Origin: Elusimicrobiota bacterium
GTDB lineage: Bacteria; Elusimicrobiota; Endomicrobiia; Endomicrobiales; Endomicrobiaceae
Assembly (NCBI GenBank): GCA_031274365.1
Contig: JAISQF010000011.1
Location: 124,001-188,000 of the forward strand
Length of the DNA: 64,000 bases
Reading direction: 5' to 3'
Shown: positions 41,614 to 46,035 of the stretch, in pieces
Layout: each line of letters opens with the position of its first letter
Position numbering within the stretch: the first letter of the stretch is position 1
Notes under the pieces: generated by a model
What the model was told of the DNA's origin: nothing
Seen by the model: only the letters and a program-made list of their open reading frames with translations
The model's database searches: none
Made by a program: the position numbers and the translations under genes

Positions 41614-42894
41614 ATGAACTATAAAATTGAAACTATCGGCTGCCAAATGAATGTTTGCGAATCGGATATTATATCTGAATTTCTGCAAAAAAAAGGCTGG
41701 CAGGACGTGAAAGATATAAATCAAGCTGATATAATTATCTTAAACACTTGTTCGGTGCGCGCTCAAGCCGAACAAAAAGCGTTTTCTTTTCTCGGCAGAG
41801 CCGAAGAATTGAAACAAGAAAAAACTAATGTCAAAATTGTAGTAATTGGCTGCATGGCGCAAAGAATAAGCCAAAAAATAAAAAAAAGATTTACAAAAAT
41901 TGATTTGATTATGGGGACGGACAAAACTCCCGTCGAAATAGCCGCTAAAATTGAAAAATTATCGGTAAAAAATACCGATGATATTTTTACAAATTCCGGT
42001 AATGACAAGAAAAAAAAATTAGACGGTAAAAAAATAGTCGGATATTTTTCTATTATGAAAGGCTGTGATAATTTCTGCTCATATTGCGTAGTTCCATTTG
42101 TCAGAGGGAGAGAAAAAAGTTTTGACGACAAAATTATTTTTGACAAATGTTTCAACTTTATAGAAAACGGCGGAAAAGAAATTATGCTGCTTGGACAAAA
42201 CGTCAATTCATATAACTATAACGGATTAAATTTTTCCGGCTTAATAAAAAAATTAGCGTCTATCGACGGATTAGAAAGAATAAGATTTATGACAAATCAT
42301 CCGAAAGATTTAAGCGATGAATTGATTGAAACAATAGCGGCTGAACCTAAGGTTTGCAAACATATACATTTGCCAATGCAGTCGGCTTGCGATAAAATTC
42401 TTGAGAAAATGAATAGAAAATACACATACGCTCATTATTTAGATCTTATAAAAAAGTTGAGAGAGAAAATTAAAAATATAAGCGTTACCACAGATATAAT
42501 AGCGGGTTTTCCGGGAGAGAGTAAAAAAGATTTTGACGATACTATCAGAGCGGTAAAAGAGATAAGATTTGGAGGTTTATACGCTTTTAGATATTCTCCG
42601 CGCCCCGACACAAAAGCGGCAAATTTTGACGATGATATTTCTTTAGACGAAAAACAAGAACGCTTGTCCGCAATTTTAGCTGAGGGCAATGAAATTTCCG
42701 CACAAATAACGTCTGAGATGAAAGGTAAAATTTATAAAATTTTAACGGATAGATATGAAAATGGTTTTTTAGAAGGAAGGACAACTTGCGGGCGGAAAGT
42801 TCTCATCAAAGGAGATGAAAATAATTTTGGTAAAATACTTGATGTTTTGATAAAAGAAGTTAAAGTCAACGCTCTTTTTGGTGAAATAGTATGA
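41614..42894 (+). CDS. miaB: tRNA-2-methylthio-N6-dimethylallyladenosine synthase MiaB
   Basis: A 426-residue methylthiotransferase: N-terminal UPF0004 domain with ETIGCQMNVCESD, ILNTCSVRAQAE and IGCMAQ (three cluster-binding Cys). The radical SAM core MKGCDNFCSYCVVPFVRG follows, and the C-terminal TRAM domain (GRTTCGRKVLIKG) ends the protein. It thiomethylates i6A37 of tRNA, the product of MiaA encoded 6 kb downstream. It overlaps the lytic transglycosylase gene as ATGA. Confidence 0.95.
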   Translation: MNYKIETIGCQMNVCESDIISEFLQKKGWQDVKDINQADIIILNTCSVRAQAEQKAFSFLGRAEELKQEKTNVKIVVIGCMAQRISQKIKKRFTKIDLIMGTDKTPVEIAAKIEKLSVKNTDDIFTNSGNDKKKKLDGKKIVGYFSIMKGCDNFCSYCVVPFVRGREKSFDDKIIFDKCFNFIENGGKEIMLLGQNVNSYNYNGLNFSGLIKKLASIDGLERIRFMTNHPKDLSDELIETIAAEPKVCKHIHLPMQSACDKILEKMNRKYTYAHYLDLIKKLREKIKNISVTTDIIAGFPGESKKDFDDTIRAVKEIRFGGLYAFRYSPRPDTKAANFDDDISLDEKQERLSAILAEGNEISAQITSEMKGKIYKILTDRYENGFLEGRTTCGRKVLIKGDENNFGKILDVLIKEVKVNALFGEIV

Positions 42895-43481
42895 GTGTAA
42901 AAAGAAAGCATATAGTATGGATTTCCGTTATATTGTTTTTAATTTGCGGAGGCTTATACTTGCACAGAATAACCGGAATTTTTTATAGAGTAATATACGG
43001 CGACATAATAGATTCTTATTCGCAGCGTTTTAATGTCGATCCTTTGCTCGTAAGCGCAGTGATGAGAAAAGAAAGCAGCATAAATCCGAATGCAATATCT
43101 AAAAAAGGTGCGGTGGGACTTATGCAGCTTATGCCGATTACCGCAAGAGAAATAGCGTTAGATTTAAATATAAGAGATTATAACGACGAAATGTTAAAAA
43201 TTCCAAAAATAAACGTGATGTTTGGGACATATTATTTAAAGAGACTTTCAAAAAGATATGACAATAATTTAATTATGACATTGGGCGCATATAATGCCGG
43301 CATAGGAAATATTGACGTCGTGCGGTTTATAAATACGGGCGAAGATGTTGAAATAAAAGATTTACCATTTGAGGAGACAAGAAGATATGTAAAATCCATT
43401 TTACTTACGTATCATTTTTACAAATTTTTAGACGATATAAAGCATTTGCCCTCAAAAATTAGTAAGGAGTTAAAAAATTAA
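42891..43481 (+). CDS. Membrane-anchored lytic transglycosylase (SLT domain)
   Basis: A 196-residue protein with an N-terminal membrane anchor (about 8-28) and a GH23 SLT domain. RKESSINPNAISKKGAVGLM holds the catalytic Glu, followed by QLMPITA, and GAYNAGIGNID is the conserved AYNAG block. It cleaves glycan strands with formation of 1,6-anhydroMurNAc. Its 3' end contains AAGGAG, which appears to serve as ribosome site for mutS. Confidence 0.92.
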   Translation: MSVKRKHIVWISVILFLICGGLYLHRITGIFYRVIYGDIIDSYSQRFNVDPLLVSAVMRKESSINPNAISKKGAVGLMQLMPITAREIALDLNIRDYNDEMLKIPKINVMFGTYYLKRLSKRYDNNLIMTLGAYNAGIGNIDVVRFINTGEDVEIKDLPFEETRRYVKSILLTYHFYKFLDDIKHLPSKISKELKN

Positions 43482-46035
43482 GCAAGACAATCTTACGCCT
43501 TTAATGAAGCAATATTGGGATATAAAGTCCAAATATCCCAATATGATTTTGATGTTTAGGCTCGGCGACTTTTATGAAATGTTTGCAGACGACGCCGTAA
43601 AAGCCGCTCCTATTCTTGAAGTCGTTCTAACGCAAAGAACCGGTTTGCCTATGTGCGGCGTTCCGTATCATGCCCTTAATTCTTATCTAAAAAAACTTAT
43701 ATCCAAAGGTCTAAAAGCTGCAATCTGCGATCAGCTTGAAGATTCCAAAACAACGACGCATTTAATCAAAAGAGGAGTGACGAGAGTAATTACGCCCGGG
43801 ACAATACTTGAAGATTCTTTGCTTGAAGCAAAAACAAATAATTTTCTTATGTCAATTTATTATGATGAAAATCTCCGGCAAACGGCTTTTGCCGCCGTCG
43901 ATATTTCGACGGGAGATTTTTTTTGCGGACAATGCGATATAAAACTTATCGGCGCGGAAATTTCAAAATACAATCCCGGTGAAATAATCGTTCCGCAATC
44001 TTTTTCTCTTAATAAAAAATCTCCCGATTATATTGCGGATTTTGTAAATAAAATTTCACAAACGTCCGATTCTTCTTTTGACATAAACTCGGCTCAAAAA
44101 AATATCGAGGAGAAGTTCGGAGAAAATTCTCTGAAAAATTTTGAATTGGACACTCAAGGGATTATACGCGCTTGCGGAGCTGTCTTGTCATACTTAAAAG
44201 AAACTCAGCCAAAGAGTTTGGAAATATTTTCTCAAATAAAAAAATTAAATTTTCAGGATTTTATGCAGCTTGATTCAAATGCGATAAGAAATCTTGAAAT
44301 ATTAAATTCTCTCTATTCGGGCAAAAGGGAAAATTCTCTGCTTAGCGCGGTTGATCAAACAAAAACTTCTATGGGAGCAAGAACTATCCGTCAATGGATA
44401 TTAAAACCTCTATTAGATAAAGATAAAATAATAAATCGCCTAAACGCCGTTCAATTTTTTATTGAAGAATCTCAGATTAGAAAAGAAATCGTTGAAAAGT
44501 TTAAGGGAATTTCTGACATTGAAAGAATTATGGCAAGAATCGCCTCTCAAACGGCTTTGCCCAGAGATTTAATAGCTTTAAGAAATTCATTGACAGCGGT
44601 TAATGAAATAGATCAAATATTGTCAAAAAATGAAAATTACATAATTGAAATTCCGCAAAATCATAATCTCATAGAAAAAATTTCGCTGACATTGATAGAC
44701 GAACCGCCGATAAATTTAAGAGACGCAAATTTTATAAAAAGCGGAGTCAACGAAGAACTCGACGAATTAAGACGCATTGCCGCAGACACAAAAGGTTATA
44801 TTTCCGAGCTTGAATCAAAAGAAAAACAGAGCACGGGAATAAATAATTTAAGAATAAGATACAATTCTGTTTTTGGATATTATATTGAATTGACAAAAAG
44901 CGCCGCCACTCAAGCGCCGCAACATTATATAAGGAAACAAACGCTTGCAAATGTGGAAAGATATATCACGCAAGAATTAAAAAATCTTGAAGAAAAAATA
45001 TTGTCGGCTCAAGAAAAAATTATAAGAATTGAAAACGCTATTTTTATTTCTTTAAGACAAGAAATATCTTTGTTTGCGGCAGATGTTTTAAGAGTCTCGC
45101 AAATAATAGCCGAGATGGACGTTTATTGTAGCTTTGCGCAAAACGCCGAAGATCACAATTATACGCGTCCGCAAATAAATGATGGAAAAGATTTGAATAT
45201 AATTAACGGAAGACATCCCGTTTTAGAGCAAGCGTTAAAAGACGGAGAATTTGTATCCAACGATATTAACTTTAATAAAGATTCAAGAATCGCTATTTTA
45301 ACTGGACCAAATATGTCGGGTAAATCAACTTATTTAAGACAGACCGCTTTAATAGTAATTATGGCTCAGATAGGTTCTTTTATTCCAGCAGAAAGCGCTC
45401 AAATTGGTATTGTGGACAAAATTTTTACGCGCATAGGCGCGGGCGACAACCTCGCGGGAGGCGAGTCAACCTTTATGGTTGAGATGACCGAAACGGCCAA
45501 TATATTGAGACAATACACGGACAGAAGTTTGATAATACTCGACGAAGTCGGCAGAGGAACTTCAACTTACGACGGGATGTCGATAGCTTGGGCGATTTTA
45601 GAATTTTTTGCGGATAAAAGGATGATTGCAAACAACGGTTCAAAAATTCTTTTTGCAACGCATTATTTTGAATTAACTTCGCTTGAAAATAAATTTGAAG
45701 GAATAATTAACTTAACCGTTCTGGTTAAAGAATGGGAAGGCGAAGTTGTTTTTCTTCACAAAATAGTTAGCGGCAGCGCCGATAAGTCGTATGGAATTCA
45801 CGTTGCTAAAATCGCGGGACTTCCTCATAGAATAATACAAAGAGCTTACAGAATTCTTGAAGGATTGGAAACACAGGCGGCTCAAAATAATAAAGATAAA
45901 AATCAATATTATCTCGATTTGTTCGTGCCGGAAAAGCCGCAAATAAGTTCCGAACTAGAAAAAACAGATCTTAATAATTTAACTCCGATGGACGCTCTTA
46001 ATTTATTAAAAGAATGGAAAGAAAAATATAAATAA
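43477..46035 (+). CDS. mutS: DNA mismatch repair ATPase MutS, probable AUU start
   Basis: An 852-residue MutS: mismatch-binding GDFYEMF, Walker A TGPNMSGKSTYLRQTA, GAGDNLAGGESTFMVEM, Walker B IILDEVGRGTSTYDG and ATHYFELT. The first ATG is at 43504, but it has no ribosome site and would cut the family's N-terminal LTPxMKQY block. Reading the frame upstream gives codons ATT-AAG-CAA-GAC-AAT-CTT-ACG-CCT-TTA before that ATG. The ATT at 43477 lies 7 bases after AAGGAG (43464-43469), and an in-frame stop at 43471 excludes anything longer. I therefore place the start at AUU, overlapping the previous gene by five bases. Partner MutL is encoded 0.5 kb downstream. Confidence 0.9.
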   Translation: MKQDNLTPLMKQYWDIKSKYPNMILMFRLGDFYEMFADDAVKAAPILEVVLTQRTGLPMCGVPYHALNSYLKKLISKGLKAAICDQLEDSKTTTHLIKRGVTRVITPGTILEDSLLEAKTNNFLMSIYYDENLRQTAFAAVDISTGDFFCGQCDIKLIGAEISKYNPGEIIVPQSFSLNKKSPDYIADFVNKISQTSDSSFDINSAQKNIEEKFGENSLKNFELDTQGIIRACGAVLSYLKETQPKSLEIFSQIKKLNFQDFMQLDSNAIRNLEILNSLYSGKRENSLLSAVDQTKTSMGARTIRQWILKPLLDKDKIINRLNAVQFFIEESQIRKEIVEKFKGISDIERIMARIASQTALPRDLIALRNSLTAVNEIDQILSKNENYIIEIPQNHNLIEKISLTLIDEPPINLRDANFIKSGVNEELDELRRIAADTKGYISELESKEKQSTGINNLRIRYNSVFGYYIELTKSAATQAPQHYIRKQTLANVERYITQELKNLEEKILSAQEKIIRIENAIFISLRQEISLFAADVLRVSQIIAEMDVYCSFAQNAEDHNYTRPQINDGKDLNIINGRHPVLEQALKDGEFVSNDINFNKDSRIAILTGPNMSGKSTYLRQTALIVIMAQIGSFIPAESAQIGIVDKIFTRIGAGDNLAGGESTFMVEMTETANILRQYTDRSLIILDEVGRGTSTYDGMSIAWAILEFFADKRMIANNGSKILFATHYFELTSLENKFEGIINLTVLVKEWEGEVVFLHKIVSGSADKSYGIHVAKIAGLPHRIIQRAYRILEGLETQAAQNNKDKNQYYLDLFVPEKPQISSELEKTDLNNLTPMDALNLLKEWKEKYK

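Follow-up and report, generated by a model that had tools for sequence, protein, structure and literature searches.

Bacterial genes without a canonical start codon

To our knowledge, only very few bacterial genes depend on a start codon outside the set AUG, GUG and UUG (NTG). One of them is pcnB of Escherichia coli, whose AUU start and translationally limited expression were reportedly described by Binns and Masters in 2002. The AUU-start genes of E. coli are given as two, infC and pcnB, in PMC9410913, and a switch from AUG to AUU was counted once among 61,358 ancestral AUG starts in the 36 genome triplets of PMC5622118. Initiation factor IF3, the product of infC, represses non-NTG starts, as shown for the infC and sigR cases, and IF3 discrimination underlies the autoregulation of infC (PMC5472188). 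The GTC start of Streptomyces sigR, which the same source describes as the first documented GTC start, is GTC in 32 of 34 species and GTT in two, and its control by IF3 was shown there with infC overexpression and fidelity mutants (PMC5472188).

The mutS gene studied here appears to join this small class, and the breadth of its conservation is unusual. As in infC (AUU or AUC, in E. coli and Streptomyces), an AUH codon (AUU, AUA or AUC) stands behind a ribosome site, and discrimination by IF3 is expected; but whereas the product of infC is a translation factor under autoregulation, that of mutS serves mismatch repair and does not act back on IF3. Like pcnB of E. coli, it is a single non-translation gene with an AUU start, but it differs in function and in phylum, and AUU, AUA or AUC is conserved over several genera. 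It is also like sigR in being a gene other than infC with a conserved non-NTG start and a strong ribosome site, whereas sigR encodes a sigma factor balanced against an anti-sigma factor, and its IF3 control is experimental, that of mutS being predicted. No report of a mutS with an AUU or other noncanonical start was found in the literature searched, and searches on Endomicrobium start codons or mismatch repair gave nothing on the mutS case; papers on near-cognate starts that came up were mostly unrelated.

The start region of mutS in the window

The window (the whole stretch of 64,000 nucleotides that was analysed) belongs to a genome that measures 1.04 Mb and is split into 22 contigs. Among named relatives, Candidatus Endomicrobiellum and Candidatus Parendomicrobium (Elusimicrobiota) stand nearest to it. 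Read from an ATT at 43477–43479 on the forward strand, the mutS coding sequence extends to 46035 (852 codons and a stop), and its peptide begins I-K-Q-D-N-L-T-P-L-M-K-Q-Y-W. The Shine-Dalgarno sequence AAGGAG (43464–43469) ends 7 nt ahead of the ATT, and an in-frame TAA (43471–43473) shuts the frame on the 5' side. A scan of the window found no ATG, GTG or TTG in this frame between the TAA and the first in-frame ATG (43504–43506), which leaves ATT 43477 as the sole start option, as the original prediction had held; its coordinates for an AUU start placed 7 nt after AAGGAG proved exact. The upstream gene on the same strand, slt (42891–43481), is an open reading frame for a lytic transglycosylase (Pfam SLT domain, 106 bits), and the first base of its stop codon TAA (43479–43481) is the third base of the mutS ATT, so that the two genes share one base. 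The start region showed no unusual folding (z of 1.42 for 81 nt and 0.55 for 91 nt).

The protein read from the ATT behaves as a full-length MutS1, with a match of 1020 bits to the NCBIfam model NF003810 (curated cut-off 480) and of 951 bits to TIGR01070 (cut-off 641.7), and all five Pfam MutS domains (I–V) were found in it. It is 64–69% identical to its nearest relatives over the full length, and the closest solved structures, which are E. coli-type MutS entries, align from residue 4. Position 1 of the NF003810 profile falls on residue 6, the L of LTPLM, and profile positions 1–4 are the L-T-P-L encoded at 43492–43503, the N-terminal block of the family. A protein begun at 43504 enters the profile at position 5 and would lack this block, the loss that had been foreseen for such a start.

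Conservation of the start codon in the family

The family search covered 76 genomes, with a mutS match in 65 and a readable 5' end in 64. The aligned start codon is ATT in 23 of these genomes, ATA in six and ATC in two (31 AUH), ATG in 32, two of which (G088 and G077) were tallied as such despite a remaining ATT at -11, and ambiguous in one, which was excluded (G061, with ATG at -14 and ATT at -11). In the AUH genomes, an AUH codon with a ribosome site is found where an in-frame NTG is missing at the expected N-terminus; G067 (in-frame GTG at -13) and G079 (TTG at -17, in a broken mutS) were assigned via homology and ribosome-site spacing, and G072 has NTG codons further 5' (-28 and beyond). 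The alignment of relatives called for by the original prediction places ATA and ATC beside a conserved ATT, and a sequencing error as the source of the ATT, the way out that it had allowed, was rejected because AUH was found in 31 of the 64 genomes. Five named family records (L031–L034 and L049) stand outside these counts and are very probably identical to assemblies already counted: ATT occupies the mutS start place in Ca. Endomicrobiellum agilis (L031) and Ca. Parendomicrobium reticulitermitis (L033), and ATG in L032, L034 and L049. Beyond the family, all 23 Elusimicrobiota genomes and all 18 records from other phyla have an in-frame NTG 5' of the LTPLM methionine.

A Shine-Dalgarno core precedes the start in all 31 AUH genomes, a ribosome site having been a criterion for picking among AUH codons, and it lies at exactly 7 nt in 26 of them and at 6, 8, 9, 9 and 9 nt in the others. 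Because GGAG ends exactly 7 nt before only 129 of 76,951 background ATH sites (counted on both strands, in the window and in 400 kb of the relative G023), as against 26 of the 31 AUH family members, this spacing is beyond chance. Within the LTPL block, T, P and L are the same in all 31 AUH genomes, and all of their synonymous codons are in use (for Thr, ACG 13, ACT 8, ACA 9 and ACC 1; for Pro, CCT 14, CCA 6, CCG 6 and CCC 5); such fixed residues with synonymous drift are as expected for a sequence that is translated. Judged from the conserved place, ribosome site and spacing together with the start of the profile match, the start-codon reading is strongly supported, and the AUU start of mutS is almost certainly real.

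In a quick MutS tree (69 rows, being 62 of the family and seven of the outgroup; G034 and G089 were too short and were omitted), in which 25 of the 66 inner branches are open and many rows consist of the N-terminal fifth of the protein alone, the AUH genomes occur only in a single 47-row clade (SH-aLRT 95), which spans several genera and has several ATG lineages inside it. A second family clade of 15 rows is all ATG. By parsimony, at least seven changes between AUH and NTG are needed, or ten among four states. The count is silent as to direction; on the evidence of the outgroup, AUH would have arisen once and then been replaced several times by ATG. Because ATG took over in several lineages, among them G001, the sole other genome of the window's genus, the AUH start is not indispensable; in G001 the ATG was gained two codons 5' of the place, where an ATC persists.

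Alternative readings and the overlap with slt

The ATG at 43504 is the first canonical start of the frame and the usual choice of ordinary gene callers, and in G092 the matching codon is GTG, a start codon still. Translation could thus be imagined to begin there, with the N-terminal block lost or untranslated in the clade; but there is no Shine-Dalgarno sequence ahead of it in the window, as had been noted originally, nor ahead of the matching codon in any AUH genome. The T, P and L upstream are held through synonymous codon changes, the block that they belong to is the beginning of the MutS profile, and the methionine itself is a conserved residue also in relatives that start further 5' at ATG. 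We therefore rejected this start as very improbable and read the codon as an internal methionine. A fusion of slt and mutS through +1 frameshifting near the end of slt, assisted by an internal Shine-Dalgarno sequence in the manner of prfB, is less probable still and was likewise rejected. The two genes do overlap or abut in many genomes, with a Shine-Dalgarno-like site ahead of the slt stop, but their relative frame varies (slt ends at +5, +8, +4 or +25 to +40 after the start), no overlapping open reading frame was found in ten of the 31 AUH genomes, and the spacing is initiation-like in 26 of 31, unlike the tight Shine-Dalgarno spacing of the prfB frameshift site.

A real rival, absent from the original prediction, is that the AUH codon came about through the overlap of the two genes and is frozen by the slt coding sequence, not selected for low expression. 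The slt gene runs 25–40 nt beyond the first base of the mutS start in 15 of the 31 AUH genomes and 4–8 nt beyond it in six, and no overlapping open reading frame was found in ten, including G084, for which just 218 nt of upstream sequence were examined. In the 15 genomes with the long overlap, the ribosome site and start of mutS sit inside the slt coding sequence, and slt is in the frame that reads the ATT as A|TTA, so that an in-place ATG would create a TGA stop in slt; in the window, an in-place ATG would abolish the slt stop, TAA becoming GAA. The codons for the slt C-terminus Y-K-G-A-E-K-L contain the ribosome site. The coding constraint of slt alone thus forbids an in-place ATG in 16 of the 31 AUH genomes, and none of the 16 ATG genomes in the AUH clade has an in-place change from ATT to ATG that keeps GGAG at 7 nt. 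However, the constraint is missing in 15 of the 31 AUH genomes (ten without an overlapping upstream open reading frame and five with a short overlap that tolerates ATG), where the ribosome site and its spacing nevertheless persist. The overlap cannot account for these 15 genomes, which include every ATA and ATC start, and as a full account we regard it as possible but rather unlikely. It may explain the origin of the AUH start and part of its retention, low or IF3-tuned expression probably accounting for the rest.

Ribosome-site strength

A strong ribosome site stands before mutS in 31 of 31 AUH genomes versus one of 32 ATG genomes; among other, NTG-start genes, it was seen in 14 of 30 in the window, 65 of 154 in G023 and 74 of 153 in G011. 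When relatedness is counted, the tie between AUH and a strong site comes down to four pairs, independent of one another and placed on supported branches, and is not significant (p 0.25, with low power). Weaker starts (GUG and UUG) tend to carry stronger Shine-Dalgarno sequences in the comparison of PMC5622118, and the pairing of AUH with a strong site would suit a compensation of the same kind, the relatives not being independent of each other.

By analogy with infC and sigR, we infer initiation at AUU, low output and IF3 control for mutS. In the Endomicrobium-type bacterium of the window, mutS would be translated from an AUU that follows a strong Shine-Dalgarno sequence at 7 nt, this site would offset a start codon that IF3 discriminates against, and MutS would be made at a low, probably IF3-dependent rate. 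Taken as a whole, this account is quite probably correct. That synthesis of MutS is limited at translation and sensitive to IF3, as the original prediction had suggested, is the best explanation of the start and appears moderately likely; it fits the pattern in which infC also lacks an NTG start, mutS stands alone beside infC, and strong sites go with AUH.

The putative start of infC and a possible role of IF3

The occurrence of other non-NTG starts was surveyed in an ortholog screen of 423 genes (37 from the window, 191 from G023 and 195 from G011), which detects such a start solely where conserved residues precede the first NTG and found mutS (in the window and G023) and infC (in G011) only. 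An infC whose start is preceded by an in-frame NTG, of which G023 has an example, would escape it. The other genes that were flagged were dismissed as broken genes in G023, start-site misalignments or the known prfB frameshift site. The prfB genes of G011 (around joined position 126967) and G023 (joined position 287653) have the classical layout of programmed frameshifting, with GGGGGT CTC TTT GA and GGGGGGCTCTTTGA. A relaxed use of start codons throughout the clade was rejected, since the screen yielded mutS and infC alone.

Genes for IF3 were recognized in 67 of the 76 family genomes, and none was found in the window's own assembly, which is incomplete. The infC start was read at 38 loci of the family. 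In the place where the gene should begin, right after a GAGG-type site, the codon is GTC in 23, ATA in 11 and GTA in four, and an in-frame NTG lies within eight codons upstream in four of the 38. The infC of the family (loci L129–L158 and others, e.g. L157, L141 and L134) thus seems to start at a putative GUC, AUA or GUA. Directly 5' of infC, many family genomes (e.g. at L143 and L157) have a G+C-rich hairpin with a T run behind it, which may terminate the gene before infC or act as an attenuator.

The infC starts were paired with those of mutS, except at two loci, whose genomes gave no match to mutS. The infC codon is GTC or GTA in each of the 17 AUH-mutS genomes in which it could be read, and ATA in 11 of the 19 ATG-mutS genomes. 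This association is confounded by relatedness and is a testable lead. The infC start may have set the stage, in that a weaker start would give less IF3, and AUH starts elsewhere would be better tolerated. A further idea, that mutS and infC share IF3-discriminated starts, so that the level of MutS follows IF3 activity and IF3 sets the mutation rate, is speculative and in our estimation improbable; if it were true, mismatch repair would be linked, through IF3, with the condition of the translation machinery.

Implications for the family

A gene caller that accepts nothing but NTG starts would cut off the N-terminus of MutS in this family. As a separate observation, mutS has internal stops in G069 (L109), G091 (L113) and G079 (L123), all genomes of 0.4–0.8 Mb, which suggests a decay of mismatch repair in these reduced symbionts. 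The conservation of so rare a start suggests that, in this family of gut symbionts, the synthesis of MutS, a protein that prevents mutations, is limited at translation. A conserved AUH start in a repair gene would be a natural case of start-codon choice limiting a protein that governs the mutation rate, and the group to which the AUH clade belongs includes symbionts with reduced genomes, where the mutation rate matters.
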